From Amycolatopsis sp. cg9 (GTDB lineage: Bacteria; Actinomycetota; Actinomycetes; Mycobacteriales; Pseudonocardiaceae), in assembly GCF_041346945.1 (NCBI RefSeq), contig NZ_CP166851.1:1-64000 (forward strand): a stretch of DNA of 64,000 bases. Reading direction: 5' to 3'. The translations under genes and the position numbers were made by a program. Shown here piece by piece: positions 7,450 through 64,000 of this stretch. Below the pieces are notes generated by a model that was not told where the DNA came from, did no database searches, and was given only the letters and a program-made list of their open reading frames with translations. The stretch's first letter is position 1. Each line of letters opens with the position of its first letter.

Positions 7450-7536
7450 GGCCCGCGGCCGGGGCAGAGTGCGGCCGCCCCACCGCCCGGGGTACGGCGC
7501 CGTGTTCTCTCGTTCTTCCTGTTCAGCGCCGTTTCG

Positions 7537-8091
7537 TCAGCGCAGGCGCCACTGCTGGTCGTCGGTGTCGGTGATCTCGTCGTCGTAGAGCCAGGCCGCG
7601 AGCAGCGGCCGCAGCGGCTCGGCGATCGCCCGGTCGATCTGGGCCAGCGGCACCCCGCTGTGGCGCTGGCTCTTGTGGTGGGCCCAGGCGGTGAGCACGC
7701 CGGTCAGCGCGTCGACCAGCGCGCGGGTGGGCGTGCCCGGCTGGTAGTCGGCTTCGAGCTCGGCCAGGAGCCGTTCGGTGTCCGTCAGCGGCGTCCGCAC
7801 CTGGTAGCGGTGCAGGTAGGGCAGGGTGATCTCGACGGTCGTTCCTGGCTGCCGTCCGGCGAGCACGACCCGGTTGTTGCCGCCGTCGCCGCCGCACTGC
7901 ACGACCCAGGCGGTGCTCCAGCGGGTCCAGACGCGGGTGATGCCCTTCATCAGCAGCTCGGGCCGGACCCGGACTTCTCGTTCGAACTCCTTGCGCAGGC
8001 CGTGCCCGATGAGGGCGTCGCCGAGGTCGCCGGTGTCGCGCACGTACAGCTCGCTGTAGGGCGGGATGAACGCCGACTGCGGTCCGGGCAT
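7537..8091 (-). CDS. hypothetical protein, 184 aa, coupled to ComM-like gene
   Basis: The start ATG overlaps the stop of the upstream ComM-like gene (TGATG) and has GGAGG seven bases upstream, so translation is probably coupled. The sequence has an N-terminal beta-rich half and a helical C-terminal half. It contains no recognised motif. Coupling suggests that it works with the ComM-like protein (inference). A copy of the CTGAACAG word lies 11 bases after its stop. Confidence 0.65.
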   Translation of the reverse strand: MPGPQSAFIPPYSELYVRDTGDLGDALIGHGLRKEFEREVRVRPELLMKGITRVWTRWSTAWVVQCGGDGGNNRVVLAGRQPGTTVEITLPYLHRYQVRTPLTDTERLLAELEADYQPGTPTRALVDALTGVLTAWAHHKSQRHSGVPLAQIDRAIAEPLRPLLAAWLYDDEITDTDDQQWRLR

Positions 8092-9572
8092 CACCGCACC
8101 TCCGCTTCGGTGGGGCCGATGTCGACCGCGTTGCGCAGGGCCAGGGCCTGCTCGATGTGGTGGCGGCCGGGTTCGTCGGCGCCGTCGAGGTCGGCGACGG
8201 TCCACGCCAGCCTCAGAGCGATGTCCGCGCCGCGGCCGGACAGAGCCCCGGTGTCCTGCGCGTGGCGGACCCGGTCGGCCACCGCGGCGGTGCCCGCGAC
8301 GGCGTGCAGCACCGCGTGCGGCACGCTCGCGTTGGTCACGCCCGGTCCCTGTCCGGCCCGGCTCCAGCGGGCCGCGGCGCGGGCGCGGGCGGTGGCGACG
8401 TCGGCGCGGGCCCGCTTCAGCAGCCGGGTGACGCGGGCGTGGTCATGGGCGTCGGGCTTCGGGTGCAGGGCGGTGTGGCGGGCGATGGTCTGGATGTCGA
8501 TCGCGTCGCGCAACGCCGGTGCCATCTGCCATCGCCGCGGGGCCGAGGTGCGGATGCTCGTGGCGATCAGCTGGAGCCCGGACGGGAAGCGGTGGGTGCG
8601 CCCGTCGTGGGAGAGGCGGACTTCCCGCTCGATCAGCACGCCGCGCAGCGCTTCCTGTGCGGCGGCGCCGAACTCGTCGAGCTCGGGGGCGAACAGCACG
8701 CCGTGGTGGGCCTGGCTCAGCAGGCCGGGCTGGGGGCCTCCCAGCAGCGACGCGATCGGGTCGCTGTGATGGGTGACGACCAGCGGCGGTGTGGACACCA
8801 GGGCGGCGCCGTCCTCGCGCGGGCCGAGCAGGGACTGGATCGCGGCCAGCTCGAGCTGCTGCTGCGGGGTGAGGTCGGGTACCAAGGCGTGCAGCCAGGA
8901 GGCGACGGCCGCGGTGCCCGCGTCGGTGCCGAAGCCGCACAGCAGGTGGTGGCCGCCGGCGGCGGCGATCGTGACCACGCGCTGGGCAGTCGCGGTCAGC
9001 GCGCTCATCGGCGCGGGCTGACGTGCGGCAACCGGTCCGGCCGGCACGCTCAGCCGGTGCAGGGCCGCGTCGTCGCCACGCAGCCAGTCGGCGATCTCGG
9101 CGAGGGTGTGGGCGCCGAGCACGTCGAGCCCGTCGACCAGTGCAGCCTGGCCGAGCGAGGCCGCGGGCACGATGACCCGGCGGATGCCGTGGGCGTAGGC
9201 GGCCTGCGCGGCGGGCAGCACGCCCAAAGTCGGGCGGAGGCTGCCGTCCAGGCCGACCTCGCCGAGCACCGCGGTGCTGGCCAGCCGCTGCGGCACGACG
9301 TCGAGGGTGGCGGCCAGCACGGCGACGGCCACGGCGGCGGCCTCGGGCTGCGCGGACGCCGGCGGGATCCGCACCTCGACGTGGGGGCGCGGGTCGCCGT
9401 GGCGCGGGCGGGAGTTGGCCAGGGCCGCGTGGACCCGGTCGTGCAGCTCCCGGTTGGCACTCTGGTGCCCGGTGACCAGGGTGATTCCGGGCGGTCCGTC
9501 GACGGCGGCGGCGGTGAGGGTGAGCGGGTGGCCGGTCAGGCCGTGCACGGCCACGGTCGAGATGGTGGTCAT
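8091..9572 (-). CDS. ComM/YifB-like protein with degenerate ATPase motifs
   Basis: It follows the plan of the YifB/ComM family (493 residues, near the usual 500). An N-terminal Lon-protease-like domain carries STAVLGEVGLDGSLRP (residues 99-114). The Mg-chelatase-type AAA+ core carries GGHHLL (206-211) and ends in the family C-terminal helical domain. In active members GGHHLL leads into a GPPGxGKT P-loop; here it reads CGFGTDAGT, lacking the lysine. The Walker B position reads VLFAPELDEF, lacking the first Asp. ATP binding is therefore doubtful. ComM is a branch-migration helicase in competence. A regulatory or scaffold role here is inference. Confidence 0.85.
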   Translation of the reverse strand: MTTISTVAVHGLTGHPLTLTAAAVDGPPGITLVTGHQSANRELHDRVHAALANSRPRHGDPRPHVEVRIPPASAQPEAAAVAVAVLAATLDVVPQRLASTAVLGEVGLDGSLRPTLGVLPAAQAAYAHGIRRVIVPAASLGQAALVDGLDVLGAHTLAEIADWLRGDDAALHRLSVPAGPVAARQPAPMSALTATAQRVVTIAAAGGHHLLCGFGTDAGTAAVASWLHALVPDLTPQQQLELAAIQSLLGPREDGAALVSTPPLVVTHHSDPIASLLGGPQPGLLSQAHHGVLFAPELDEFGAAAQEALRGVLIEREVRLSHDGRTHRFPSGLQLIATSIRTSAPRRWQMAPALRDAIDIQTIARHTALHPKPDAHDHARVTRLLKRARADVATARARAAARWSRAGQGPGVTNASVPHAVLHAVAGTAAVADRVRHAQDTGALSGRGADIALRLAWTVADLDGADEPGRHHIEQALALRNAVDIGPTEAEVR

Positions 9573-9624
9573 GGCGAGGCTCCCTTCGGGGGCGACGATG
9601 GGGTGCTGAACAGCGCAGTCGGGG

Positions 9625-9939: not shown

Positions 9940-9978
9940 GGGGTCGTCACCTTTCGGGCCTGGGTGTGCGGGAACAGC

Positions 9979-10018: not shown

Positions 10019-10028
10019 GGGATCGTGG

Positions 10029-18771: not shown

Positions 18772-19134
18772 GGGCGGGTTTCTCCTCGGCTGCTGGTCGT
18801 CCAGCGGCAGCCCCGAAGTCCCTGTTCACCGAAGGTGCAGGCGGGTTTGTGCTGCCGCGCCCCGCGGTTCGGCGGGACGCGCTCGGTCGGCGCCGGCGGC
18901 GGGAAGGGGGTCAAGCTCGCGGGTGCTGTTCCCGCGGGCTTGACGCCCGACCGGCGGCGGCGCAGCGTGCGCGACGTCCCGCCGGACCGCGGGCGTGGCA
19001 GGAGGAGATAGGGAGAGTGGATCGAGGCGCCCGTCGCTTCTGGTCCACAACAGCGGGAGTTCGTGCTGGCTACGCACTTCTGCTGTTCAGCGCCTTGACC
19101 TGTGCGGTGTTGGCGACGCGGGATGGGTCCCGAT
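18772..19134. other. 363-base gene-free spacer
   Basis: It holds the hairpin at 18910-18944 with outer pairing arms, and a CTGAACAG word (minus orientation) at 19083-19090. A short open frame on the minus strand (19077-18826) crosses the hairpin and has no ribosome binding site, so I do not call it a gene. Confidence 0.5.
18910..18944. repeat. nested hairpin spacer
   Basis: GTCAAGC and CGCGGG pair with CCCGCG and GCTTGAC around TGCTGTT. Outer arms CCGCGGTTCGGCGGGACGCG (18863) and its near-complement (about 18970-18992) extend the fold. Confidence 0.6.
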
Positions 19135-31399: not shown

Positions 31400-31506
31400 G
31401 GCAGGGCACCTCCTCGACAGGCGTCATCCAGCCCAGACGGGGCTGTTCAGCGGTGTGGGGCAGCGGAACCGACGTCAGGGCCTGGTCGGCCGCGTCGGGG
31501 CTGGGG

Positions 31507-39644: not shown

Positions 39645-39758
39645 CGCGGTGCTCTCCTTGGCGTCGGGTCGCTGTGGTCTCGGATGCCCGGCGGAATCAG
39701 GGAATTCAGGTTCCCATGGAATTCGATGATCAGCGGCGGTGTGGCGGGTTGTAGCTGT

Positions 39759-40511
39759 TCAGCGGGCGGGGACGGCGGAGGTGTCGGTGGTGGTGACCAC
39801 GAGGGCCAGGCGGTGACGGCGGGGCAGGAACCGGACGTCGCTGGTGGGCCAGTCGTCGCGGCAGAGTCCGGCGGGCGGCGGGGTCCAGCCCGGCCTGGCC
39901 CACCGGTACAGCCGTTGCAAGGGGTCGAGGGCGAAGTAGCGCGGGAGCCAGCCGCCGGTGTTGGGGATCGGCGGGTCCAGTGGTTCGCCGCGGGCGTCGA
40001 GCTGGAGGCGTACGCGGTCGGCGTCGTCGTGGTGGCGGCGGCAGAAGGTGTGCAGGGCAACGATGTGGCCGGTGGCTAGGTCCCGCTCCTCGACGCTGAT
40101 CGTGGCGTGGTTGCCGCACACCAACCGCGTGCCGGGCGGCGACTGCGGGACGCTGGCCGCCACGGCGCTGCGCGGGCGGTACGGGCGCACGCGCGGGCCC
40201 TGGCAGGTCATGCCGGAGCGCAGCTGGTGCTCGCGGCCGGGTTCGTAGCGCGGAGCGTCGGCGGCGAGGGCCAGCTTGTGCCGCCACCGGCCGAGCTCGT
40301 CGCGGCCGAGCAGCAGGGCTGCTCGGGTGAGGCTGCTCGCGGCGTCGGGAGCGTGCCGGGCCGGGTCGCGCAGGTTCACCCATGCCAGGGCCAGGGCGAG
40401 CTCGCGGACCTCGGTCGGGAGCTGGTCGGCGTAGATCCGGGCGACCAGGTCGTCGTGGTGCTGGAGGTCGGCGAATTCCCGCTGGGCGTCGCGCTGGGTC
40501 AGTTCGGCCAT
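39759..40511 (-). CDS. hypothetical protein, 250 aa
   Basis: The N-terminal half is helical (REFADLQHHDDLVARIYADQL). The centre holds possible metal ligands (LVCGNHATIS, FCRRHHDD). The C-terminus is Trp/Pro-rich. The stop codon TGA lies inside a CTGAACAG word. Its start overlaps the end of the upstream gene by 13 bases. No family is recognised. Confidence 0.6.
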   Translation of the reverse strand: MAELTQRDAQREFADLQHHDDLVARIYADQLPTEVRELALALAWVNLRDPARHAPDAASSLTRAALLLGRDELGRWRHKLALAADAPRYEPGREHQLRSGMTCQGPRVRPYRPRSAVAASVPQSPPGTRLVCGNHATISVEERDLATGHIVALHTFCRRHHDDADRVRLQLDARGEPLDPPIPNTGGWLPRYFALDPLQRLYRWARPGWTPPPAGLCRDDWPTSDVRFLPRRHRLALVVTTTDTSAVPAR

Positions 40512-40750
40512 CGGGTCACCTCCTCCAGCATCAGGCAGGACTCCAGGTCCGCGTCCGCGATGGTGTAGAGCGGCACCGGCCAGTCGTCGGCCACGCGGAC
40601 GGTGCCCTGCACTGCGAGGAGGGTGACCATCTGCTCGGCGTCCGGGCCCTGAACAGCGACAATGTCGAGGACCCAGGGCGGCTGCCCGAGCGGGTTGCGC
40701 ACGGTCGTCCCCGGTCGCAGTTGCCCGGCTCGGGGATCGGCGCCGGTCAC
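40499..40750 (-). CDS. hypothetical small protein, 83 aa
   Basis: A GTG start overlaps the upstream stop (GTGA). The protein is beta-rich (TVRNPLGQPPWVLDIVAVQG) and looks like a small barrel domain. It is part of a tightly packed operon with its neighbours on both sides. Confidence 0.6.
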   Translation of the reverse strand: MTGADPRAGQLRPGTTVRNPLGQPPWVLDIVAVQGPDAEQMVTLLAVQGTVRVADDWPVPLYTIADADLESCLMLEEVTRWPN

Positions 40751-41218: not shown

Positions 41219-42775
41219 TTACTCGACCTCCTCCAACAGGGCGCGGAACTCGCGACGCAGCTCCGCCAGCCGGCCCGCGCGGTCCTCGACGTCGTCCTCG
41301 CCGGCCAGCGTGATGGTTCGGGCCAGGGCGGCGCGCAACGCGCGGACCAGACCGGCCTGCTCGCGCCGCGCGGTCTCGGCGGTTTCGGCGCGCTGGGTGA
41401 GCCCGCCGAGCTGTTGGTGCAGCTGGCCGATTTGGTCGGCGTGTGCCCGCCGCTCGGCATCGCGGGCGGATTCGGCCTGTTCACGGACCTGCTCGACGGC
41501 GGCGTTGAACTCGCGGCGCGCCTGTTCGAGTCGCTGGTCGAAGTCGGCGCGGGCATCGTCGAGGGCGCGCTGCTGCTCGCCGGCGCGGCGCTCCAGCTCA
41601 GCGGCGAACTCCTCGCGCAGCGTGCGTTCCAGCTCGGCGGCCTGGGCGACGGCGGCGTTGGCGCGTTCCGCCTGAGCCTCGGCGCGCTGCTTCTGCTCCT
41701 CGGTCGCGGCGCGGGCTGCGGTCAGCTCGCCTTCGGTGCGGGCGAGGTCGCCGGCGGCCTTCTCGGCCTTTTCGGCCAGGGCCTCGATGCGTTCGTCGGC
41801 GCGTTCCAGGTTGTCCTGGAGCTCGGTGACCCGGCCTTCGGCGCGCTCTTCGGCCTTCTCGGCGCGCTCCTTGGCCAGGCGGTCGCGGCGCGCGGCGTCC
41901 TCGGCGGTTTCCGCCCGTGTCTCGGCGGCGGCCTTGGCGGCCTCGGCGTCGACGGCGACCTGGCGTGCGGTCGCGGCGTTGCTCTTCTCCGTGGCCGCCT
42001 CCTGTAGCGCGGTGTCGCGGGCGGCGTGCGCGGCCGCCACGTCCTGCGCGAGCTGGGCGCGGACGCCGCCCAGGCCGTCGAGCAGGCTGGTGATGGGCCC
42101 CAGGACGGCCTGAACAGCGGGGATAGCGGTATCGACGAGTTCGCCCAGTTCGACGACGTCGAGGTCGGGGACGCCGACCGGTCCTTCGGCGTCGGCTCCG
42201 GTCTGGAGGCGGATGACCGCGGCGAGATCGCGCTCGGAGCGCGCCATCTGCCCGCAGGTCTTCAGCACGCCGGGCTCGACCTCCCAGGACGTGACGTCCT
42301 TCGAGCAGTACTCGGACTTCTTCCCGGCACGCTGCTCGTCGGGCAGCGGCTTGCGGCAGCGGGAAAACCCGCAGCGACGGACGTGCGCCTCGTTGAACGC
42401 GACGGCGGAGACCGGATCCAGCCGCGCCGGCCGGGTTCGCGCCGCGACCGCGGCGACCTCCGCGGGCCCCACGTGGCGGGCATAGCCGCGTCGGCCCTCG
42501 CCGTCGACGAAGACCCCGGGCTCGGTTGCCCCGGCGGATTCCGCCGCCAGCTCGGCCGCAGGGCGGCCGGTGAGGTCGGCCTGCGCTGCGAAGAACGCGC
42601 CCGCCGGGTCGGACGTCGACGGGCCGTCTGCGCCGCCTTCACCAGCGACGGGGCCGCCGGGCCGCTCGCCGCGAGCACCGGAATCGCCGGTCGCCGCGCC
42701 GGGATCGGCGGGCGCGCGGTCCGCCGCTGAGCGTTCTTGCTGGTCAGCGGGCTGCTCGCCCTGCTCATCGGTCAT
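41219..42775 (-). CDS. long coiled-coil protein with Cys cluster (KfrA-like shape)
   Basis: The first 90 residues are low-complexity and acidic. Next comes a Cys set (RRCGFSRCRKPLPDEQRAGKK, EYCSK, LKTCGQM) that could bind zinc. Residues about 235-510 are one long coiled coil rich in Ala, Glu and Arg. The layout recalls plasmid KfrA-type structural or regulatory proteins, but I see no clear KfrA HTH. It is the first gene of the minus-strand operon and is divergent from the plus-strand operon, with operators between. Confidence 0.7.
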   Translation of the reverse strand: MTDEQGEQPADQQERSAADRAPADPGAATGDSGARGERPGGPVAGEGGADGPSTSDPAGAFFAAQADLTGRPAAELAAESAGATEPGVFVDGEGRRGYARHVGPAEVAAVAARTRPARLDPVSAVAFNEAHVRRCGFSRCRKPLPDEQRAGKKSEYCSKDVTSWEVEPGVLKTCGQMARSERDLAAVIRLQTGADAEGPVGVPDLDVVELGELVDTAIPAVQAVLGPITSLLDGLGGVRAQLAQDVAAAHAARDTALQEAATEKSNAATARQVAVDAEAAKAAAETRAETAEDAARRDRLAKERAEKAEERAEGRVTELQDNLERADERIEALAEKAEKAAGDLARTEGELTAARAATEEQKQRAEAQAERANAAVAQAAELERTLREEFAAELERRAGEQQRALDDARADFDQRLEQARREFNAAVEQVREQAESARDAERRAHADQIGQLHQQLGGLTQRAETAETARREQAGLVRALRAALARTITLAGEDDVEDRAGRLAELRREFRALLEEVE

Positions 42776-43259: not shown

Positions 43260-43615
43260 GCACGCCGGCACCGGGCGAGCACCGGGGAGAGCAGCCGGAG
43301 GACCACCCCGGCGAGCCGACCCCCGCGGTAGGCGGCCGCGAGTCGAGCGCCCGCGGCGTCGGGTCGCTGGCCGCGGGCGTCGCCGTCGCCGCCGCGGCGG
43401 TCGTCCTGGGTACGGCCCTGTTCTTCGTGGTCACCCCCGCCGAGCACTTCGCCACCGGGATCGGCGTTGTCGCCGCCGTGGTCGCGGCCGCAGCGCTGAC
43501 GTTCTGGTGGCGGGGTGCGGCCCGGAGCCGACGGCACCGTGGAAATGCGACTCCAAGCCCTCTGAACAGCACGAACGCGAGCCAGCAGACCGACGAGGAA
43601 GGAACCGCGCGATGA
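43256..43615 (+). CDS. two-helix membrane protein, 119 aa
   Basis: After a 33-residue hydrophilic start come two hydrophobic segments (GVAVAAAAVVLGTALFFVV and GIGVVAAVVAAAALTFW). The basic tail contains PLNSTN, encoded by a CTGAACAG word. The start overlaps the upstream stop. Confidence 0.65.
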   Translation: MSTPAPGEHRGEQPEDHPGEPTPAVGGRESSARGVGSLAAGVAVAAAAVVLGTALFFVVTPAEHFATGIGVVAAVVAAAALTFWWRGAARSRRHRGNATPSPLNSTNASQQTDEEGTAR

Positions 43616-43881
43616 AGCCGTTCCGCCGGCGCCGCAGGAGCCCGTACGCGCCGGAAGCGGAGGCCGTGATCGCCGGCGCCCAGATGACCGGGCGCGCGCT
43701 GGCCGACGCCACCGCGGAGTTCGTACGCATCTACGGCCAGGAACCGTCGCCGGAGACCATCCATGTGCCCTCGGAGCGCGGCGACCTTCCGCAGCTGGAG
43801 ACCGCGTCGCGTCCCGCTCCGGCCGAGACCGACGCTGAACAGGCGCAACCGACCGCGGGCACGGAATCCGAGGGGCGCTGA
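43612..43881 (+). CDS. hypothetical small protein, 89 aa
   Basis: A basic start (MKPFRRRRR) is followed by a helix (EAEAVIAGAQMTGRALADATAEFVRIYG) and a disordered acidic tail. The tail has AEQ encoded within a CTGAACAG word. ATGA overlap with the preceding gene. Confidence 0.6.
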   Translation: MKPFRRRRRSPYAPEAEAVIAGAQMTGRALADATAEFVRIYGQEPSPETIHVPSERGDLPQLETASRPAPAETDAEQAQPTAGTESEGR

Positions 43882-44988: not shown

Positions 44989-45330
44989 ATGGGCGACCTG
45001 AACAGCACAGACACCACGCCCGGCGGACAAGACGCCGTCTGGGCGTGCACGTGGCACGCCGACACCGGCATGGCAGTGCGGAGGTTCCCTCGCCCGGCGG
45101 ACCTCATCACCGCGGCCGGGCAGGCCCTGGCTCAGCGCCAGGACACCGGCCCCGCTGACCGGGTGTGGATCGTCCTCACCGAGACCGAGACCACGCAGCT
45201 GGCGCCCGAGCTCCGGGACGTGCTGGCCAGGCTCGTGCGCGATGGGCGCCGCGTCGGCCTGGTCGTCGAGGTGCACGGCGGGCCCAGTCCCGCGCCACAC
45301 CCTGAACGGGCGGCGACGAACCGGCCCTGA
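44989..45330 (+). CDS. hypothetical protein, 113 aa
   Basis: The ATG follows AAGGACGG. The beta-rich middle (VWIVLTETETTQLAPELRDVLARLVRDGRRVGLVVEV) suggests a small alpha/beta domain. CTGAACAG occurs twice: once in codons 4-6 and once around the stop (TGA inside the word at 45327). Confidence 0.6.
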   Translation: MGDLNSTDTTPGGQDAVWACTWHADTGMAVRRFPRPADLITAAGQALAQRQDTGPADRVWIVLTETETTQLAPELRDVLARLVRDGRRVGLVVEVHGGPSPAPHPERAATNRP

Positions 45331-45403
45331 ACAGCACAAACCGCGCACCACCACGAGATCCACCCATCCTGTTGGACCACCGACACTGAGGGAGTTGACC
45401 GGC

Positions 45404-46293: not shown

Positions 46294-46928
46294 ACACCGA
46301 CCCGGCCGGCGCCGGGCCGACCGAGACCGAGCTGACCGCGATGCGCGACATGATGCTCGGCGTGATCGACTTCGCGCCCACCGACGCCGAGCTGCGCACG
46401 GCCTGGTCCAACCCACGGCTGGCCAGCCTGGCGCGGGAGTGGGGCTGGGGCGACACCGAGCTGCGCGAAGAGCTGGCGGCCGAGCTCGAGGCCATCCACC
46501 GCGACGCCCTGTCCACCGCCGTGCAGCTGCGCACGGGCCGCCAGGAGCGACTGCTCGATCCCACCTACGTGCGTCCGGTGCAGCTCGACGAAGCGGCCCT
46601 GGCGCGCGGTAACGGGTCCGCGGGCGAGCCCGCCCCGGCCCCGCACTCCCCCACCGGCCCAACGACCGCTGCGGTACCGCCGGCGGTACCGCCGAGGCCG
46701 GCTCCGCCGGGCACCGCGGCCACCGTGCTGCTGATCATCGGCGTCGCCGTAGCCGGTGGCGCCGCGATCGTGCTGTTGACCTGGGCGCACCAGCTGCTGG
46801 CCGGGCTGGCGTGCGTGGTGGCCGCGGTGGCGCTGATCGTGGTGGCCGACCGGCGGCTGCGGCGCCACGGCGCAGCCCGCCGCGCGGCCCTGAACAGCGA
46901 CAACGCACAGGAACACCGCGATGGGTGA
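46290..46928 (+). CDS. membrane protein with duplicated N-terminal domain, 212 aa
   Basis: Residues 15-65 (TAMRDMMLGVIDFAPTDAEL, LAREWGWGDTELREEL) match the start of the protein at 39018-39644, so one copy arose by duplication. A proline-rich linker leads to two hydrophobic segments (TAATVLLIIGVAVAGGAAIVLLTW and LLAGLACVVAAVALIVV). The tail RAALNSDN is encoded across a CTGAACAG word. The gene before it overlaps by GTGA. Confidence 0.65.
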   Translation: MNTDPAGAGPTETELTAMRDMMLGVIDFAPTDAELRTAWSNPRLASLAREWGWGDTELREELAAELEAIHRDALSTAVQLRTGRQERLLDPTYVRPVQLDEAALARGNGSAGEPAPAPHSPTGPTTAAVPPAVPPRPAPPGTAATVLLIIGVAVAGGAAIVLLTWAHQLLAGLACVVAAVALIVVADRRLRRHGAARRAALNSDNAQEHRDG

Positions 46929-47489: not shown

Positions 47490-48601
47490 GCACCGAGGTC
47501 GAGCTGCGGCGGGACCGCGGGCCGGAGGTCGCCCGGCCGGGCGAGGTCACGCTCGCCAGCGCGGCCAGCCTGGTGCTGCCGCCGCCGGCCCCGGACGAGC
47601 GCTACCACCTGCGCGGGCTGACCGAGCTGTGGGCGGCCAAAGTCGCCGGCGCCGAGTCCGCGCACACCCGCCGCTCCTACGAGACCGGGCTGGCGCAGTG
47701 GCTGGACTACTGCCTGCGCAGCCGCGTCGACCCGCTCGCGGCCCGCCGCGCCGACGTAGACGACTGGCTGGCCACCCACCTGAACAGCAAGAACCCGCAG
47801 ACCGTCAACGCACGGCTGGCCGCGGTCGGCTCCTGGTACGGCTACCTGCTCGACAACGACATCGACGTCCGCGACCCCACCGCCCGGGTCAAGCGCCCCA
47901 AGCGGCAGCGCGCGAAGTCCAAGACGACGTACCTGGACGAGGACGAGCTCAACGCGCTGCTGGCCGAGGCCGACCGTCGCCTGGAACACGCGAAGCCGCT
48001 CGGCGGGCTCGCGCTGGAGATCGCCGCCCGCGACGTCTCGGTGCTGCGCACGCTCTACACGACCGCCGTCCGATCCGGAGCGGTCCAGCTGGCCACCGTC
48101 CCGGACGTCCGCCTGGTCCAGGACGGGCACCGGGTCCTTCGCTTCCACGGTAAGGGCGACGGCGGGGAGACCACCGACCGGCTCAAGCCGCTGGTCCCCT
48201 ACGCGGCCACCGCCGTCGACTTCTACCTCGAGCTCGTCGCCGAACGCCTCGGCGTGCCCGTCGACGAGCTCGACGGCCTGGCCTTCAGCACCACGCCGTA
48301 TCAAGGCCGGCCCGGCGGCCGCGGACTACGGTCGGACGCGCTCGCCGAGATGATCCGCACTATCGCCGCCGCGGCGGGCATCGCCCCGGCCAAGGCCGCC
48401 AAGCTCACCCCGCACTCGCTTCGGCACACCGCGGCTACCCTGCTCGGCAAGACGAAGACGCTGGCCGAGGTACAGGACTTCCTCGACCACGCCGACCCGA
48501 GGACAACCCGGACGTACCTGCACACCGACCAGTCGCTCAACGCTTCGCTCGCCTACAGCACGATGTCGTTCATCCACGTCCCGCCTGTTCAGGCGGCGTA
48601 A
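47486..48601 (+). CDS. tyrosine recombinase, XerC/D-like
   Basis: The core-binding domain (residues 40-145: HTRRSYETGLAQWLDYCLR, NPQTVNARLAAVGSWYGYLL) precedes a catalytic domain. Residues seen are Arg in TTAVRSGAV, Lys in FHGKGDGG, His-x-x-Arg in PHSLRHTAATLL, His in FLDHADPRTTRTY, and Tyr in that last segment. The length of 371 is normal. On a plasmid such enzymes resolve multimers or integrate DNA. It closes the coupled operon. I saw no paired att-like repeats flanking it. Confidence 0.9.
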   Translation: MSTEVELRRDRGPEVARPGEVTLASAASLVLPPPAPDERYHLRGLTELWAAKVAGAESAHTRRSYETGLAQWLDYCLRSRVDPLAARRADVDDWLATHLNSKNPQTVNARLAAVGSWYGYLLDNDIDVRDPTARVKRPKRQRAKSKTTYLDEDELNALLAEADRRLEHAKPLGGLALEIAARDVSVLRTLYTTAVRSGAVQLATVPDVRLVQDGHRVLRFHGKGDGGETTDRLKPLVPYAATAVDFYLELVAERLGVPVDELDGLAFSTTPYQGRPGGRGLRSDALAEMIRTIAAAAGIAPAKAAKLTPHSLRHTAATLLGKTKTLAEVQDFLDHADPRTTRTYLHTDQSLNASLAYSTMSFIHVPPVQAA

Positions 48602-52551: not shown

Positions 52552-53639
52552 CCGAGACCACCGACACCGGCCCCGCGCGGCCTAAGACCCCGGACGTGTC
52601 CGGTCTGGGCGGCGGTCGTCGCCGCGACCGAGCCCGGCGGCTCACCGCAGCGGCTCAAGGCGGACCCGGCGCGGTCCCGGCCGCGCTGGCCGGCCCCGCC
52701 GCCCAGGCGCCCAGCGGAGAGCCAGCTGCGGACGTGCCCACGAGCGAGCATCAGGTGCCTGTCCAGCAGGCTGCGGCACCTGCGCCGCCCGCGGCCGCGT
52801 CAACGTCCGAGGCGGCGCCCAGCACGCCTCCTGAACAGCAGCCTGAACAGCGCAAAGCCGCCGAGCTGCCAGCCGCGCAGGAACCTGCGGCACCGATCGT
52901 TCAACAGGTCGTCGCCGAATCGCCAGCAGCTGCGGCAGCAACGGACGACACACCGGCGTCGCCGGCCGGACAGACCGCCGCACCGCCCGCGAATACCCTC
53001 CAGCCTCCGGGCGGCGCGACCGACGAGGGTCCTGAACAGGGCAAACAGCAGGGAATCTCCAGTACGACCGAGCACGCCGTGCAGGATGCGGCCGACGAGG
53101 TGACCGCACAGCCGCCGGCTCTTGGTGCTGGTTTGCAGGACGCGGTCGACAGCACGCCGTCCACCGAGCTGGCAGACCTCGAGCAGGACGCGGACCAGGA
53201 GGACGACGACGAGCGTGACGACCTGGACGACGAGACGGAGGAGTTCGCCGGAGGCCCGATCACCCTCCAGACCTACGTCCCCGATGTTCTGGCGACGAAG
53301 TTCCAGAACATGCAGACGACCGGCCGAACAGCCGAGCTGATCGTCCTCACCGCGGTCCGGGACTGCGTGGAGCGCCTTCCGCAGCTCATCGCAGACGCCC
53401 GCGGACCCGTTCACGAGTCCGGGCTCTTCGCCGGGCTGGAGGTCCTGGAGAAGAAGCCCGGCCGGCAGGCCAAGCCGAAGCCGAACAGCTCTCGCGTGCA
53501 GTACCAGGTGCGTCCCGCGTTCCTGCCCGACCTCAAGAAGGTCGCCAAGAAGCACAAGCTCAAGCTGTCCGTGCTCGTTCGCCTGGCCCTCGGCGACTTC
53601 TTCAGCGTTCCGGTGCGGATCGCCCGGACGAAGCGGTAG
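52548..53639 (+). CDS. ParB-role DNA-binding protein with C-terminal ribbon-helix-helix
   Basis: The first 230 residues are low-complexity (Ala, Pro, Gln, Glu). The C-terminal part has RVQYQVRPAFLPDLKKVAKK followed by HKLKLSVLVRLALGDFF, the strand-helix-helix layout of an RHH domain. The gene overlaps parA by four bases (ATGA). It would bind the centromere and stimulate ParA (inference from context). Three CTGAACAG words encode PEQ in the linker. Confidence 0.75.
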   Translation: MTETTDTGPARPKTPDVSGLGGGRRRDRARRLTAAAQGGPGAVPAALAGPAAQAPSGEPAADVPTSEHQVPVQQAAAPAPPAAASTSEAAPSTPPEQQPEQRKAAELPAAQEPAAPIVQQVVAESPAAAAATDDTPASPAGQTAAPPANTLQPPGGATDEGPEQGKQQGISSTTEHAVQDAADEVTAQPPALGAGLQDAVDSTPSTELADLEQDADQEDDDERDDLDDETEEFAGGPITLQTYVPDVLATKFQNMQTTGRTAELIVLTAVRDCVERLPQLIADARGPVHESGLFAGLEVLEKKPGRQAKPKPNSSRVQYQVRPAFLPDLKKVAKKHKLKLSVLVRLALGDFFSVPVRIARTKR

Positions 53640-53745: not shown

Positions 53746-54120
53746 ATGCTGCTGAACAGCAAAAAGCTGCACCCGATGACGACCGGCGAGCCAGTTGACC
53801 CGGCAGGCAACCCCGCCCCGCCGGATCACTGGGACCTGGTTCCTGAACTCGTGATTCAGGCGCCGGCGCTATTCGGTGGGCGCCGCGGACCCTTCCAGAT
53901 AGCACCGTTCGAGCGACCCCACGTGCTCTGGCAGCAGGACGGCACGTGGCGTATCGACCCGTACGGCGTCGGCCGACGTGAAGGTTCTGACTACGAAAAG
54001 CAGACATTCCTCGTCGTGGATGGGCAGCTCCTCAACGACCTCGAACCCGAGCAGACCTACTTGCTCCGGCACACGCGGGCTGGCGACGGCCATTGTGGAG
54101 TCGAGCTCCGCCGCGCGTGA
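53746..54120 (+). CDS. hypothetical protein, 124 aa
   Basis: Two starts are possible: the ATG at 53746, where codons 3-5 hold a CTGAACAG word, or an ATG at 53776. The centre reads FERPHVLWQQDGTWRIDPYGVG and looks like a small beta domain. It is a single gene between the partition terminator and a convergent operon. The function is unknown. Confidence 0.55.
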   Translation: MLLNSKKLHPMTTGEPVDPAGNPAPPDHWDLVPELVIQAPALFGGRRGPFQIAPFERPHVLWQQDGTWRIDPYGVGRREGSDYEKQTFLVVDGQLLNDLEPEQTYLLRHTRAGDGHCGVELRRA

Positions 54121-54609: not shown

Positions 54610-54707
54610 GCTGGGCACGCTCCTTCCTGGTAGGGGGAGTGGCCCCGTCGCGGCGACGCTTGCTGGCTTGGCCGTGGCGGGGCGCTACTCGTGGGAATTC
54701 CTGCTGT

Positions 54708-55430
54708 TCAGCCGCGTTCGCGACAGGTGTTGAGCATCTGGGCGAGCGCGGTCTTCTCCGGACTGGAGATGGTCAACTTCCACTCGGTCTTCACTGCGAC
54801 CCAGCGGACGGCGTAGTCGCAGCGTTCGGCCGGCACCGGGAGGTATTCCGGCGGCGGGCCGTCGCCCTTACTGCGGTTGCTGTGGGCGGTGACAGCGACC
54901 AGCTCGGTCTGCCAGTCGTTGGCGAACCGCTCGCGCTGGTCCTGGGGCCAAGAGGCCGCTCCGGTGCGCCATGCTTCGGCCTCTGGCACCAGGTGGTCAA
55001 TGTCGAGTTCGGTTGGGTCGTGGACGGTGACCCCGTCATAGAGGGACACCCAGGTACCGGAGATGACCTTGCAGGTCTTTGGGTCGCTGCGGACGTCCCG
55101 GCCTTGGCGCTGAAGCACGATCTCGCGGGTGTCGCAGGAGTTGCCGTGGCTGGCCCAGCGGTCTCCGAACTTCGTCCGCGCGTAGCCAGCCATGGAGCCG
55201 GGCGCCTCGACGCGGAGCTCGCCGAGCTGGCGGACGGCGGCCGTGAGGGCGGACGGCTGGGTAGTCGCGACGATCGGCGCGGAGCTCCCTGTGACGTTTG
55301 CGCCGGTTTGCCCGGGTTTGCAGCTGGTCAGCGACGCGGCGAGGAAGATCGTCAAAGCGAGTATGCAAGACCGAGCTGGCTTGCCATCTGCGCTGTTCAA
55401 GGTGGGTTTCTCCACTTCTCCCGGGGGCAT
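54708..55430 (-). CDS. secreted DUF1524-type HNH nuclease (lipoprotein)
   Basis: After a hydrophobic segment (ILALTIFLAASLTSC) comes a lipobox-like LTSC, so the protein is probably lipid-anchored outside the cell. The catalytic part reads LDIDHLVPEAEAW, then ANDWQTELVAVTAHSNRSKGDGPPPEYLP. This is the DUF1524 His-Asn pattern of the GmrSD/secreted-nuclease family. The start is uncertain: the ATG at 55430, or a TTG at 55400 that has GGAG eight bases upstream. The stop TGA lies within a CTGAACAG word. Confidence 0.8.
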   Translation of the reverse strand: MPPGEVEKPTLNSADGKPARSCILALTIFLAASLTSCKPGQTGANVTGSSAPIVATTQPSALTAAVRQLGELRVEAPGSMAGYARTKFGDRWASHGNSCDTREIVLQRQGRDVRSDPKTCKVISGTWVSLYDGVTVHDPTELDIDHLVPEAEAWRTGAASWPQDQRERFANDWQTELVAVTAHSNRSKGDGPPPEYLPVPAERCDYAVRWVAVKTEWKLTISSPEKTALAQMLNTCRERG

Positions 55431-58084: not shown

Positions 58085-59989
58085 TCACCAGCCGCCGGTC
58101 TCCGGGTCGTGGTTGCAGCGCACGGTCGGGGTGTCCGCGGGCACGTGCAGCCAGCCGAGCTCGTCGCACAGCTCGCAGGCGTCGATCGCGGCCCGGCGTG
58201 CTGCGATCTCCTCGCGGCGGGCCTGCTCGAACGCCTCCCGCTGCTGCTGCCGCAGGATCGGGCTGTTGCGCTCGACGTCGCGGATGACGCGCTGCTTGAA
58301 CGGCGACAGCGTCGGCTCGGCCCGCGCCAGCCGCGCCCTAATCCACCCGCGGGCGCTGCGGATGTAGCGGGGGAGCTGGGTGAACTCCGGGTAGCCGTGC
58401 AGTTGGTCGGCCAGGTCCTCCCAGCTCCAGTCGTGGCGGTCGAGCAGGTGGGACGCCCGGATCTGTGCCGCCAGCCACCGCACCGACACCGCGTCGCACA
58501 CCCGCGGATCAAGACGCGACCGAAGAAGCCATTCAGCGGCCCGCACAGCCTCAGACTGGGGCGCACGCTCGCGATCACCCTCGGAGCCCTGAGTTCGCCC
58601 GCCAGCGGCCGAATCAGAGCCGTTTTTGATCGAGGAAGCCGTCTTCTTGTCACTGCCCGGCGAAGCCGGTCGGTTATCCACAGGTTGTACGGAACTGGAC
58701 TTCACTTGATCTTGGTTACACACCTGCGGGGGGTGGACATTTTGGTGTTTGTGCAGGTCAGCGCCCAGGGGGTTGAAGCGCAGGCACCCGGCAACCGGCC
58801 CGCAGTCCGGGCAGACCGGGTTCGAGCTGGGCGCCCAGGACACCAGGTCGACCGGCTCGTGGACGGTGTGCGCTCCGCTCGCGTAGACGACGGTCACCGT
58901 GCCGTACAGCAGCACGTTGGCCGGGTGGACGCGCTCGTCGGCGTGCTGGCGCAGCAGCTGCTCGCCCGCGCTGACGCACGCGTCGACCAGGGCGCTGGCC
59001 TCCTCCAGCTCCTGGACAGCGAGCGGGACGCGCAGCTCGTAGACGGGAGCCAGCTGTACGAGGGTCGGTTCGTCGGCCTGGTCCTCGCGCTCGACGTCGT
59101 CGTTCAGTTCGAGATCGAGGGTCTGCCGGGCGGCTGCGGCCGCCCGGCGGCCGCGAAGGCCGGCGCGGACGGCGTCGAGTTCGGCGCGAGCACGGGCGAT
59201 TGCCGCGTCCTCCGCCGCGACAGCCTCCGCGACCCTGCGTTCCCGCTCTTGGCGCTCCGCGGCGGTCTCGCCGTCCGGGGCCTCTTTCCGGGGCAGCTGG
59301 CAGCCGGGCAGGATCTCCCACAGCAGCGCCTCCCGCTGGAGCCAGGCGACACAGCGCCGGACCGTCCGGTCCGAGCAGCCGACAGCGGCCGCGATCTCCT
59401 CCTGGGTCACCCAGGTCAGCGGGCGTCGTCCCTGGTCTGAACAGCAGCGGAGCACGTTGCAGATCCGCCACCAGCGCCGCCGCTTGGCGTTGTACCGGAA
59501 CTCCTGTCCCGGCCCGCTCTGCTGCCGTATGCGGTCCTCGACGGCACCGAGCCACACCTCAGCCGAGTCGGCCACCCGCGTGCACTCCGGCGCGCTGCGA
59601 CGAAGGATCTCGCCAGCCAGCCGCATCCGCGCCGGGACCGCGATGTGCCGCAGCACGGCCCACCGAACCCCGGACTCGACCAGCAGCCGGTCGATGGGGT
59701 GCAGCTGGTCGTACTCGTCGGCGGCCGCCAGGACGGCCTCGATGGCCGGGTCGAAGACCAGGATCGGCTCGAGCTGGCCGCTCTCGGTCGCTGCGACCTT
59801 GGCGTGCACGGCCGCGGTTCCGCCGGCCAGGTGCCAGCACTGGTCGCAGACGATCAGCTCGGCGCAGTCCAGTAGGCCGTCACCTGGCACGAGCGGTGCC
59901 CGCAGGCGGCCGAACGGCCGGCCGCAAGCCAGGCAGTCAGGCCGCTGAACAGCGGAAACAGGCGCATACAGGAGCTCGGCGGTGGTCAT
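58085..59989 (-). CDS. large helix-turn-helix protein, 634 aa
   Basis: The N-terminal Cys set is DCLACGRPFG and CDQCWHLAG. A winged helix or HTH follows at residues about 200-240 (TWVTQEEIAAAVGCSDRTVRRCVAWLQREALLW). A coiled coil (RQERERRVAEAVAAEDAAIARARAEL) comes next, and a C-terminal CELCDELGWLHVP with CNHD near the end. It could be a plasmid regulator or secondary replication protein; I cannot choose. CTGAACAG words lie inside at 59437 and 59945. Its start is the ATG at 59989, or 59998 in the same frame. Confidence 0.6.
   Translation of the reverse strand: MTTAELLYAPVSAVQRPDCLACGRPFGRLRAPLVPGDGLLDCAELIVCDQCWHLAGGTAAVHAKVAATESGQLEPILVFDPAIEAVLAAADEYDQLHPIDRLLVESGVRWAVLRHIAVPARMRLAGEILRRSAPECTRVADSAEVWLGAVEDRIRQQSGPGQEFRYNAKRRRWWRICNVLRCCSDQGRRPLTWVTQEEIAAAVGCSDRTVRRCVAWLQREALLWEILPGCQLPRKEAPDGETAAERQERERRVAEAVAAEDAAIARARAELDAVRAGLRGRRAAAAARQTLDLELNDDVEREDQADEPTLVQLAPVYELRVPLAVQELEEASALVDACVSAGEQLLRQHADERVHPANVLLYGTVTVVYASGAHTVHEPVDLVSWAPSSNPVCPDCGPVAGCLRFNPLGADLHKHQNVHPPQVCNQDQVKSSSVQPVDNRPASPGSDKKTASSIKNGSDSAAGGRTQGSEGDRERAPQSEAVRAAEWLLRSRLDPRVCDAVSVRWLAAQIRASHLLDRHDWSWEDLADQLHGYPEFTQLPRYIRSARGWIRARLARAEPTLSPFKQRVIRDVERNSPILRQQQREAFEQARREEIAARRAAIDACELCDELGWLHVPADTPTVRCNHDPETGGW
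59942..59955. repeat. palindromic copy of the dispersed word
   Basis: CCGCTGAACAGCGG is the only fully palindromic copy and lies 34 bases inside the large HTH gene. It is followed by AAAC, as in the extended consensus. Confidence 0.5.
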
Positions 59990-59999
59990 CGCGTCCATC

Positions 60000-60978: not shown

Positions 60979-61090
60979 GGCACCGAAACTTACAACACTT
61001 GGCGCCGAAATGCATGATCGAGTTTTGGCGTGTCGGAACTTCGCTGCCCCTGCTACCTGCACCTTCCCTGGGTTCATCCGGATCACCTCC

Positions 61091-61555
61091 TCATCTACTC
61101 GGCATGGCGGCCGGAGCCAGCTGCGCCGGAAAGCCCTGTTCAGCGGCCATCTTTAACACGCGGTGATCGTCGTCGACAACCACGGCGATGGAGCGCACCG
61201 CGGCGATCATGTGCAGCCGTTCGAGCTTCCAGACCGGCGAGGGGCGGAGGTCGTCATCCGGACGCATCACCAGCTCGCCGTCCGGGAGTTCATGCTGGCG
61301 TAGCCAGTCGGCCGTCAGTTGATAGATGCGGTCCGAGCGAGCCGTGAGCCAGACGACGTCGTTGTCCGCAGCGAAGTGGTGGGCCAGGGCGACGCCGGAG
61401 GGGATCGGCCGGTCGGCGCCGGCCGCGTCGAAGAACGCGGCCCACGCTTGACGTGACGCCGTCGAAGGTCGGGGCCCGAGTAGCGGTAGCCGCCACGACC
61501 CGTCCGCCACGAATCCGTCGACGTCGAACACGGCGACCGGCCGATCGTAGGTCAC
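61091..61555 (-). CDS. HAD-fold phosphatase, PNKP-like
   Basis: FDVDGFVAD (residues about 9-17) is the HAD nucleophile motif (DxDG). WLTARSD is motif II and VVVDDDHRVL is the motif IV acidic pair. The layout resembles the phosphatase domain of T4 polynucleotide kinase-like proteins. The GTG start at 61555 uses an AGGAG that is part of the preceding CTGAACAGGAGAAAC segment. Confidence 0.75.
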   Translation of the reverse strand: MTYDRPVAVFDVDGFVADGSWRLPLLGPRPSTASRQAWAAFFDAAGADRPIPSGVALAHHFAADNDVVWLTARSDRIYQLTADWLRQHELPDGELVMRPDDDLRPSPVWKLERLHMIAAVRSIAVVVDDDHRVLKMAAEQGFPAQLAPAAMPSR

Positions 61556-61567
61556 TGTTTCTCCTGT

Positions 61568-62122
61568 TCAGGCGGCCTTGGCGTTGTTGTTCAACACGTG
61601 GTCGGCGGTGACGAGCTGGTCGCGGCCGATGAAGTACTTCATGGTGAGCAATCCGGCGTCGTGCCGCTTCGGGTCACCATGGGAGGTGCACGCGTCGGTG
61701 ACGACCCACGGTGTGTAGCCCAACTCGAACGCGTCGCAGGCCGTCTTCATCACGCATGACTCTGTGGCGATGCCGCAGATCACCATCTCGTTCCACCCGT
61801 TGCGGTGAACCATCCGCGTGAACTCCGGAGTGAACGGCGAGTACTGCGCCGGCTTGTCGATTACCGACCATCGCGCGGCCGACTCGGCCAGCTCGGGGAT
61901 GATCTCGGTTTCCTCCTCGCCGGGCATGAACCGCTCCCAGTGGATCAGCCTGGTGAACTGGCTGTCGGGCTGGTTGAGGAAGCGCGTGTACACGACGTCG
62001 CGGTCGAGCTCTTCCCATCGGCGCACCAGGTCGACGACGTGAGGAACGATCGGCCGCGCACGTGTGCTGACGAACCCGTTCTGCATGTCGACGACGACCA
62101 GCACGCTCTTTCCGCTGTTCAC
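61568..62122 (-). CDS. isochorismatase-family cysteine hydrolase
   Basis: VLVVVDMQNGF (Asp near residue 12), a Lys in VIDKPAQYSPF and the nucleophile in CGIATESCVMKTACDAF form the isochorismatase-like catalytic triad. The length of 184 residues fits nicotinamidase-type members. The GTG start is part of GTGAACAGCGGAAAG, a variant of the dispersed word. The stop TGA lies inside an exact word at 61564. The substrate is unknown. Confidence 0.85.
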   Translation of the reverse strand: MNSGKSVLVVVDMQNGFVSTRARPIVPHVVDLVRRWEELDRDVVYTRFLNQPDSQFTRLIHWERFMPGEEETEIIPELAESAARWSVIDKPAQYSPFTPEFTRMVHRNGWNEMVICGIATESCVMKTACDAFELGYTPWVVTDACTSHGDPKRHDAGLLTMKYFIGRDQLVTADHVLNNNAKAA

Positions 62123-63291
62123 GGCGCTTCCTCCTTGAGTAGTTGCACGGTCTCAATGAGCTTCTGGTCCAGCTCGCTCGAGGACACCACGGCGGCGCGC
62201 AAGGCCCGCAGCTGTGCCGGTTCATTCGCGTCGCCACGCACGATTGCCGCCCGACGTCCGCGGAGCCAACGCCAGTCATGGCCGGCGGGCAACTTCGGGT
62301 CCTCGCCGTCACGAATCTGCTGCTCTAGTTCTTCGCAGAGGCACCACAGTCCCTGGGCCAGGAGCTCAACGGAGGCCAGATCGTCTTCGGTGAGCGCGGC
62401 CGCCGGCGCGAGCGGGTGGTACGCCACCCCGGCCCACGACGCCCAGCCGAGGGACACTCCGTCGACGCCAATCGGCACGTGGTCCTCGGGCGCGAACCCG
62501 TCGTTGAACAGGCGCTGCTCGATCTGACGAGCATGGTGGTGGTCACCGTCGCCGCTACCGAGCAGCGCGCGGGGCGAGGTGAGCAGCCGCAGGGCGGTGT
62601 GCAGATCACGTCCCGACCAGGCAGGTTCAACCAGCCAGAACGCTGTGAGCACATACCGAGCACACGCTCGTTCGTGATCCAGCAGGCGAGATAGGTGGGC
62701 CGCGAGTCGCTGCCGTACGAAGCGGTGGGACTCGCGCCGCCACACCGACACATCAGCGATCGCGTCTGCGCGGTGCGGGGTGACCATGTGCCACACCGCT
62801 ACTCCCCAGCTGAACAGGTACAACAGACCACGCACCGGAGGTTCGCCGTCCTCGTCGAGAACGAGTTCGACTCGCTGCGCGTCGGCCCAGCCGACGGTGA
62901 CCGGGACAGCCGACAGCGCGCTGGCCAACTCGTCGACTGCCGCGCCAACGAAGACAGGTACGAACTGGTGAGCGTGCACGAGGAACGTTCCGTCACCTGA
63001 GATCGAGGGCCGCAGGTTGCCGAACAGCTCTTCTGGACGGCGTCGGTACGCAAGGGAGTAGAGCTGGGCGTAGGGGTCGTCGGCGCGCTTGGGGGAGGAC
63101 TGTCCGTCCTCGTGGCGCATCAGCGCTCGCCGCACGCTCTCGACGCTCGCGGTCATGGGTATTCCGGCCTCCTGAGCCATCCGGTGCAGCTCGAAGGCCG
63201 CGCGGTTCAGCGACCAGCCGCGTTCCTCACGGCAGCCGCGTAGCACCCCATTGGAGCGTCCCGCGTCGTCGTGGTTCGCCGCTAGTGACAT
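62119..63291 (-). CDS. HTH regulator-like protein, 390 aa
   Basis: The N-terminal 90 residues (VLRGCREERGWSLNRAAFELHRMAQEAGI, VESVRRALMRHEDGQSSPKRADDPYAQLYSLAYRRRPEEL) match the XRE-type HTH of actinobacterial regulators. The rest is an unknown helical domain. The ATG at 63291 has GGGGGTG nine bases upstream; an ATG at 63309 is an alternative. Its end overlaps the isochorismatase start (GTGA), so it probably controls that operon. Confidence 0.75.
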   Translation of the reverse strand: MSLAANHDDAGRSNGVLRGCREERGWSLNRAAFELHRMAQEAGIPMTASVESVRRALMRHEDGQSSPKRADDPYAQLYSLAYRRRPEELFGNLRPSISGDGTFLVHAHQFVPVFVGAAVDELASALSAVPVTVGWADAQRVELVLDEDGEPPVRGLLYLFSWGVAVWHMVTPHRADAIADVSVWRRESHRFVRQRLAAHLSRLLDHERACARYVLTAFWLVEPAWSGRDLHTALRLLTSPRALLGSGDGDHHHARQIEQRLFNDGFAPEDHVPIGVDGVSLGWASWAGVAYHPLAPAAALTEDDLASVELLAQGLWCLCEELEQQIRDGEDPKLPAGHDWRWLRGRRAAIVRGDANEPAQLRALRAAVVSSSELDQKLIETVQLLKEEAP

Positions 63292-63358
63292 CGGCAATGT
63301 CACCCCCATGTCCGTGCTGTCATCTACCGCACCCTCTCTGAACAGCCAAAACTGGCCA

Positions 63359-63931
63359 CTAATAGGTCAGTTCCTTGACAACTCCATCAGTGACTTGCTG
63401 ATCACCTTGCGCATCCGATACTGGCCGCTCGAACAGCGCGGCGGAAGGACGCTGCGGATCTGCAATCCGGACGAACCGGAATCCGGCGGCCCGGTAGTAA
63501 TCGTGCAGCCTCGTGTTCGAGGTCCACGCGTCGAGCCGCACGAACGCCTTGCCGCGTTGGCGGGCGATCATCTCGGCGTGATCGAGCAGCAGCGAGCCGA
63601 GCCCGCGGTGCCGGTTGCGCCGATCAGTGATCATCCGATGAACGATCACGCATTCGGCCTGTTCAGCGGGCGTCCATAGCCACGAGTCGGTGTGCTCGTC
63701 AATCGCGATCGTTGCAGCAGGACGCTCGTCCACCTCCGCGATCCAGGTTTCGCCGGCGGCGACCGACGCCGCCACCCGCTCCTCGAACCGTGCCGCGGAG
63801 AGTCCCTTCTCGGACCACTGGTCGCTCCCGATCGAGGCGAGCCACTGGGCGGTCTCGCGCCGCCACCGGGCGATCATGGCCACTTCTGCGGTGTTCGCGC
63901 GCCGGATCTCGACGTCCGCCTTCCCGCTCAC
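63359..63931 (-). CDS. GNAT N-acetyltransferase, 190 aa
   Basis: MITDRRNRHRGLGSLLLDHAEMIARQRGK is the acetyl-CoA-binding motif A (R-x-x-GxG/A), and LDAWTSNTRLHDYYRAAGFRFVRI is the C-terminal GNAT motif. The GTG at 63931 overlaps the stop of the partial gene (GTGA) and follows GGGGAGG. The substrate is unknown. Confidence 0.85.
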   Translation of the reverse strand: MSGKADVEIRRANTAEVAMIARWRRETAQWLASIGSDQWSEKGLSAARFEERVAASVAAGETWIAEVDERPAATIAIDEHTDSWLWTPAEQAECVIVHRMITDRRNRHRGLGSLLLDHAEMIARQRGKAFVRLDAWTSNTRLHDYYRAAGFRFVRIADPQRPSAALFERPVSDAQGDQQVTDGVVKELTY

Positions 63932-64000
63932 TCGTCCTCCCCACGGTCGTTGTCCCTGTTCAGAGCGGCGCGGATGAGCCCCAGGGCCTGGTGGTCACCA
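63928..64000 (-). CDS. 3' end of a gene entering from the right edge
   Basis: The last 23 codons are visible: GDHQALGLIRAALNRDNDRG, then EDE and stop. The tail RAALNRDN closely matches RAALNSDN at the end of the protein at 46290-46928. Both come from a CTGAACAGNGACAAC word. The stop overlaps the GNAT start. Confidence 0.6.
   Translation of the reverse strand, partial: GDHQALGLIRAALNRDNDRGEDE

Follow-up and report, generated by a model that had tools for sequence, protein, structure and literature searches.

The window analysed here comprises bases 1–64000 of contig C2 of Amycolatopsis sp. cg9, about the first third of a 185,872-bp plasmid contig in a two-contig genome of 10.64 Mb. Scattered over both of its strands is an octamer, CTGAACAG, which recurs with the same flanking extension on a second plasmid, pPmarDSM45268 of Prauserella marina, and as a one-base variant on a third, designated G154:C2; the word is maintained by selection at the level of DNA and is accompanied on all three plasmids by a common block of genes. 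A sequence-only reading of the window had counted 29 exact copies. Pattern search on both strands recovers all of them, and their positions were given correctly with a single exception (47779, one base off; correct 47780). The copies are as follows, where RAAC extension refers to continuation into NNNRAAC.

7519..7526, minus strand: copy of CTGAACAG with RAAC extension
9606..9613, plus: word copy
19083..19090, minus: word copy
31443..31450, minus: word copy
34114..34121, plus: word copy with RAAC extension
37460..37467, minus: word copy
39755..39762, minus: word copy whose TGA terminates predicted gene 39759–40511
40649..40656, plus: word copy
42110..42117, plus: word copy; aligned copy in the P. 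marina plasmid at 128466 (plus)
43562..43569, plus: word copy with RAAC extension
43835..43842, plus: word copy
44998..45005, plus: word copy
45327..45334, plus: word copy with RAAC extension; predicted gene 44989–45330 terminates at its TGA
46890..46897, plus: word copy
47780..47787, plus: word copy with RAAC extension, within the tyrosine-recombinase gene; aligned copy in P. marina
48585..48592, minus: antisense copy of the word where the recombinase gene ends; matched by an aligned P. marina copy
52831..52838, plus: word copy in the ParB-like gene, first of a pair spaced 12 bp
52843..52850, plus: word copy in the ParB-like gene, second of the pair
53032..53039, plus: word copy with RAAC extension
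53752..53759, plus: word copy
54704..54711, minus: word copy whose TGA terminates predicted gene 54708–55355
59437..59444, plus: word copy within the helix-turn-helix (HTH) gene 58085–60028; aligned copy in P. marina
59945..59952, plus: word copy with RAAC extension, matched by an aligned P. marina copy
61136..61143, minus: word copy
61564..61571, minus: word copy with RAAC extension; predicted gene 61568–62122 terminates at its TGA
62810..62817, plus: word copy
63338..63345, plus: word copy with RAAC extension
63659..63666, minus: word copy within the GNAT gene
63956..63963, minus: word copy where the GntR gene ends (3'); at this aligned position P. marina has CTGAACAG and G154:C2 has TTGACCAG

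The four stop codons formed by the TGA of the word (copies at 39755, 45327, 54704 and 61564), which had been pointed out previously, match predicted gene ends.

The expectation for the window is 0.93 copies by dinucleotide shuffling (100 shuffles, maximum 5), close to the earlier estimate of about one per 64 kb, and 2.5 by an order-3 Markov model, so that the frequency of the word does not fit a third-order background. CTGAACAG ranks first among 8-mers both in the window and across all of C2, where it occurs 52 times against 5.5 expected, with 3 copies in the first 30 kb, 43 at 30–98 kb and only 6 in the 88 kb past 98 kb. The genome contains 269 copies in total, of which the remaining 217 are on the chromosome (10.45 Mb, or 0.02 per kb, compared with 0.186 Mb for C2); the word is therefore not equally common there. 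The reversed word, taken as a control, is found 141 times in the genome (2 on C2 and 139 on the chromosome), and the chromosome thus has a slight excess of its own (217 versus 139). The extended form CTGAACAGSNNNAAC occurs 28 times, 20 of them on C2 and 8 on the chromosome, and the highest counts in 79 other genomes of the genus are 14, 13 and 12. Both the chromosomal and the genus-wide comparisons support the proposal that the word is an element of the plasmid. The literature searched makes no mention of CTGAACAG as a whole word. A separate word, CAGGGCCT, is present 39 times versus 8.2 expected on C2 but along its whole length, and perhaps reflects codon context.

The complete motif is asymmetric and can be written (C)TGAACAG-S-NNN-RAC. 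Every one of the 52 C2 copies has C or G at base +8, positions +12/+13 are mostly AA and less often TT, and +14 is mostly C. The exact extension CTGAACAGNNNRAAC is borne by 9 of the 29 window copies where 0.01 would be expected, in keeping with the remark that the word often continues into NNNRAAC. Constraint on this motif was assessed by shuffling synonymous codons (300 shuffles) in a way that left each gene's protein and codon usage unchanged. The gene calls on C2 are codon-usage predictions with three genes corrected by hand and are not curated. The coding DNA of the 76 predicted genes at C2 30–98 kb contains 32 copies, compared with 4.3 ± 1.7 after shuffling (maximum 9 in 300), and because this procedure fails to reproduce the copy number we conclude that the constraint acts on DNA and not on protein. 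The same had been argued from the occurrence of copies in several codon phases and on both strands. For the 90 genes past 100 kb, 1.1 copies are obtained after shuffling and 2 are observed. The claim that the word favours gene junctions holds in part: 14 of the 43 copies at 30–98 kb have a predicted stop codon no more than 60 nt away (5.6 expected; none of 500 random placements reaches 14), but the 11 intergenic copies do not differ significantly from the 8.5 expected, the other 32 being inside predicted genes.

Megablast with 40–64 kb matched one PLSDB record, the 134-kb plasmid pPmarDSM45268, which has much of the C2 backbone and with which the coordinates of contig G263:C2 agree. It carries 18 copies of CTGAACAG against 4.2 expected, with the same extension as on C2, and 17 of these are within 59 kb syntenic to C2 30–100 kb. 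TGAACAGS is observed 20 times versus 6.4 after synonymous shuffling, and 8 of 29 BTGAACAGS sites are within 60 nt of an annotated stop codon (3.5 expected). Of 34 in-gene copies on C2, 11 are in parts that can be aligned with a P. marina gene, and for 6 of these the P. marina plasmid has a TGAACAG no more than 14 nt from the aligned place.

On G154:C2, tblastn (E 1e-5) finds g075–g081 and g083 of C2, besides weaker scattered matches, and no match for FtsK (g082), g070, g071, ParA, the ParB-like protein or the recombinase. There are just 2 copies of CTGAACAG on this plasmid and 77 of TGACCAGC, of which 43 surround the block within the first 40 kb. Over the first 41 kb TGACCAGC is the top 8-mer (43 versus 4.5 from a Markov model and 5.6 from a 400-kb sample of its own chromosome), its sole strongly enriched one-mismatch neighbour being TGAACAGC (8 versus 1.1), and its 34 coding copies there compare with 8.9 ± 2.3 after synonymous shuffling. 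Counted from the T, the flanks have S at +7 and AC at +12/+13, which is the geometry seen on C2, giving the form TGACCAG-S-NNNN-AC. The 50 copies of TGACCAGS over 41 kb include 12 within 30 nt of a predicted stop codon (3.2 expected). The correspondence was also obtained by a scan in which only the extension S....AC was fixed and all 7-mers were ranked by how often it comes after them. TGAACAG is placed first on C2 (26 of 62 versus 2.7 expected, z 14.3) and on the P. marina plasmid (13 of 35 versus 1.5, z 9.5), and TGACCAG is first on G154 (27 of 53 versus 2.6, z 15.0); the best z values in controls are 7.4 for G210:C10, 6.5 for G233:C14 and 8.1 for C2 past 100 kb. Another frequent sequence in G154, GAGGACTA (15 copies), was rejected as a dispersed word on account of its coding context, as read from the sequence. 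G154:C2 (L105–L114) also has 13 dispersed imperfect palindromes around ATGTACAT (26 strand-counts versus 0.7), for example cctacatcatATGTACATatgatgtagg at 191060; these may be sites for partition or for a regulator.

Clear matches common to the three plasmids are confined to the genes for GNAT, GntR, g077–g080, the TraB-like protein and g083. The named members are located as follows.

63359..63931, minus: GNAT acetyltransferase gene, first of the block common to the three word-bearing plasmids
63928..64000, minus: GntR-type regulator gene, continuing to C2 64734; named after a 58% identical P. marina homologue
C2 69,122–71,665, beyond the window: gene for the TraB-like FtsK/HerA translocase of the block

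The GntR gene is divergent from the tra genes, an order that resembles Streptomyces tra loci. Beside the TraB-like gene, at C2 71662–74010 (plus), is the plasmid's own full FtsK, 66% identical to the chromosomal FtsK.

Relatives that have other parts of the backbone show no excess of the word. A search with the conserved part of the ParB-like protein over 390 genomes of the family found it in four, namely this genome, G263, G233 and G261. Contig G233:C14 keeps ParA (76%), the recombinase (72%), g061 (60%) and much of the remainder of C2, and has no tblastn match to g063–g088 at E 1e-10; of its 164 kb, 160 were read and contained 4 copies. Contig G233:C21 (22 kb), which carries the ParB-like gene, has 1 copy and no excess; G261:C24, which keeps ParA and the ParB-like gene, has 0 copies in 76 kb; and G046:C20, which carries g061, has 5 copies in 240 of 276 kb read, again without excess. 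Since these partition and g061 relatives lack the block and show no enrichment, the word must follow another part of the backbone. ParA, the ParB-like protein, the recombinase and g061 (49109–50461) were accordingly rejected as readers: all four occur without the word in G233, the first two also in G261 and g061 also in G046. The Phd/YefM-like protein at 60451–60978 (minus), with two tandem Phd/YefM-like stretches, was initially attractive for what we took to be a TGTACA-like core. It was set aside because strong matches are limited to C2 and P. marina (2 of 390 family genomes, with 2 more weak); none was found on G154:C2 by tblastn, and a PF02604 search was also silent there, a result of little weight since it missed the C2 protein too. 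The HTH protein (58085–60028) likewise has no tblastn match on G154:C2. Distant relatives of it are present on pAS20800 and on a Saccharothrix plasmid, each with 5 word copies for which no expectation was computed, and a search for related loci of the HTH and Phd-like proteins found none.

Several observations were made in passing on these contigs. The ParB-like protein (window 52548–53639, plus), encoded after ParA, has two ribbon-helix-helix-like stretches read from sequence and no Pfam match; its P. marina homologue is without a listed gene, probably since the gene spans the record start. The G261:C24 sequence GAACAGTT was rejected as a word because it reads as coding, and the top 8-mer of G210:C10 because it stems from a 60-bp tandem repeat. 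That repeat is at 1.6–2.0 kb and 100.2–100.6 kb, near both contig ends, and the contig is perhaps a circular plasmid cut inside it. On G046:C20 (L068–L079), AAGGAAAA is dispersed on both strands (14 versus 1.3).

Two of the eight block genes, those for the TraB-like and GntR proteins, look DNA-binding. A search of 390 family genomes with the TraB-like protein gave some match in 26, and full-length matches only in this genome, G263 (55%), G154:C2 (47%) and G210:C10 (40%). A profile search of 338 genomes drawn evenly from the order gave at least a partial match in 225, with only C2 and P. marina at full length among the matches listed. All four relatives match NCBIfam NF041214 (plasmid_TraB; best E 1.3e-14), three of four have a weak match to Pfam FtsK_SpoIIIE, hhalign against four Streptomyces TraB proteins gives 99.7% over 469 columns, and a PDB profile search matches FtsK (E 2.7e-5). 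On this evidence the plasmid encodes in cis a predicted TraB-type translocase that is a distant relative of TraB. Its putative C-terminal helix is SETVRARLRDL in C2 and P. marina, RGTVLERLRDL in G154 and KTTVVDRLKDL in G210, and so appears to vary in step with the word on the three plasmids where a word is known (none was found on G210:C10).

These findings suggest, with about even confidence on our part, that the copies are dispersed clt/TRS-like recognition sites (TRS, TraB recognition sequence) of the plasmid's TraB-like translocase. Under this proposal CTGAACAG(S)NNN(R)AC would be a plasmid-specific DNA recognition site, present about once per 1.6 kb over a 68-kb stretch and read by the predicted C-terminal winged helix of the TraB-like FtsK/HerA protein, which would presumably act as a hexamer. 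With so many single sites the pump could load almost anywhere on the stretch and mark the DNA as 'self' for double-stranded transfer, such that dispersed loading would replace loading at a single clustered clt locus; the purpose would be conjugation. Of the options listed in the sequence-only reading, a TraB-type translocase is the best supported, with the evidence leaning against FtsK, a partition protein, stoperators and RNA processing.

A number of observations weigh against assigning the word to the TraB-like protein. The TRS described for Streptomyces function at a single short clt close to tra, whereas here some 40–50 single sites extend over 41–68 kb, with no clustering at one locus (43 copies over C2 30–98 kb; 50 of TGACCAGS over 41 kb in G154). 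The NF041214 score is far under the curated cut-off (48 bits for the C2 protein versus 800), and the hhalign alignment stops before the winged helix, a predicted domain that was read from sequence. The same block includes the GntR regulator and five poorly known proteins, there are weak G154:C2 matches for g061 (24%) and g112 (28%) as well, and a small fast-evolving protein may have escaped detection. G210:C10 encodes a 40% identical TraB-like protein, yet no dispersed word was found on it, and one whole and two partial Streptomyces TraB plasmids have no word of comparable strength. (The nearest Streptomyces word is GGACCGGA, 29 versus 6.6 in 49 kb of linear plasmid NZ_CP117710.1 (L179, 240000–289000) around a TraB/FtsK-like gene.) C2 also has type IV secretion-like genes, identified by tblastn to annotated P. 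marina genes, so that transfer may not need TraB. On G154:C2 the 41-kb limit was set after seeing the count distribution, the variant is not wholly confined (27 coding copies past 45 kb versus 12.4 ± 3.1 shuffled), and of 7 aligned G154 places only 1 carries the word in C2 and 1 in P. marina.

The GntR-type regulator, which we liken to KorSA/TraR, could instead read the word, making the sites a plasmid-wide regulon. It is encoded beside tra-like genes in all three word-bearing plasmids, and the end of its gene is the sole site at the same aligned place in all of them. However, the recognition helix of the P. marina regulator is closer to the G154 one than to the C2 one, opposite to the pattern of the word, most copies at C2 30–98 kb are inside predicted genes, and GntR operators are usually palindromic; we regard this regulon as rather improbable. 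Even less credence can be given to stoperators, at which a repressor bound to many sites would stop transcription through the backbone as in cluster A mycobacteriophages. An asymmetric site, many copies and a preference for gene ends are all stoperator-like. The estimate that about 19 of the 29 window copies follow local transcription was accurate when each is compared with its nearest predicted gene, but in-gene copies do not consistently adopt that orientation (with/against the gene: 20/12 on C2, 14/7 for BTGAACAGS in P. marina and 22/18, without strand preference, for TGACCAGS in G154; pooled, 37 of 93 antisense), and GntR, the only candidate regulator that all three plasmids share, fails to track the word.

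Both C2 and P. marina have a parA and a parB-like gene within the word territory, and the ParB-like protein (open reading frame 52548–53639) was considered as the reader of a distributed centromere or nucleoid site. This is very unlikely, as G233 and G261 keep ParA together with the ParB-like protein (71% and 61% identical) without the word and G154:C2, which bears the variant, has no homologue of either by tblastn. FtsK orienting polar sequences (KOPS) serving as guides for a plasmid FtsK are less plausible still, to the point of being hardly credible. Each of these two plasmids does encode its own FtsK with a gamma domain, but the gamma helix of the plasmid protein, LRVGFARAGRVMELLE, is nearly the same as the chromosomal LRVGFAKAGRLMDLLE despite the scarcity of the word on the chromosome, the 31 plus-strand and 21 minus-strand copies are interspersed along C2 without polarity, and tblastn finds no homologue of the plasmid FtsK on G154:C2. 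Finally, some other factor, either a fast-evolving plasmid protein or a host protein, might read the word. With only three word-bearing plasmids in this analysis, and common genes sought by tblastn alone (E 1e-4 for P. marina, 1e-5 for G154), this has some force; the word nevertheless accompanies a single gene block on three plasmids, each from a different genus, and we consider such a factor unlikely.

Recognition by the TraB-like translocase can be compared with several known systems. The KOPS and SRS octamers of FtsK and SpoIIIE (SRS, SpoIIIE recognition sequence) resemble the present word in being over-represented and in having a translocase winged helix as reader (here a putative one), although KOPS are polar toward dif and this word is without polarity. 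DNA uptake sequences of Haemophilus and Neisseria are likewise a dispersed 'self' word with a short extension, but the word described here is confined to one plasmid stretch and tracks a translocase gene, not a competence system. Two reports describe how TraB of Streptomyces is assembled on the 8-bp TRS repeats of clt (PMC4170104) and reads these repeated motifs via helix alpha3 of its C-terminal winged helix (PMC3583192, PMC4170104). In pWTY27, according to PMC3583192, the clt bound by TraA contains TGACACC four times, and a second repeat, CCCGCCC, has 15 occurrences spread over the plasmid. As with the TRS in the clt of pSVH1, pIJ101 and pWTY27, we find short repeats, a plasmid-specific motif and a plasmid-borne TraB-type translocase with a predicted C-terminal winged helix; unlike them, the sites here include a further AC element, roughly one turn of the helix downstream. 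Stoperators are described in PMC9283540 as asymmetric 13-mers with more than 20 copies across the genome in cluster A mycobacteriophages, and the orientation of the L5 repressor sites as strikingly correlated with transcription direction. The word shares with them its asymmetry and its many copies across the replicon, and differs in its weak correlation with transcription and its location mostly inside predicted genes.

More generally, and more tentatively, some Pseudonocardiaceae plasmids may possess a replicon-wide address code, that is, a lineage-specific word written into their genes. Choice among synonymous codons would maintain it, the TraB-like pump of the same plasmid would recognise it through its winged helix and could therefore load anywhere on plasmid DNA, and word and protein would drift together. 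If the TraB-like protein is indeed the reader, the case would illustrate how the reader of an unknown dispersed word can be sought via the genes that travel with it, SETVRAR with TGAACAG and RGTVLER with TGACCAG would be natural helix/word pairs for probing TraB/FtsK-type specificity, and these plasmids would have a conjugation-type translocase whose sites extend over tens of kilobases and are selected within coding DNA, unlike the single clt of Streptomyces.

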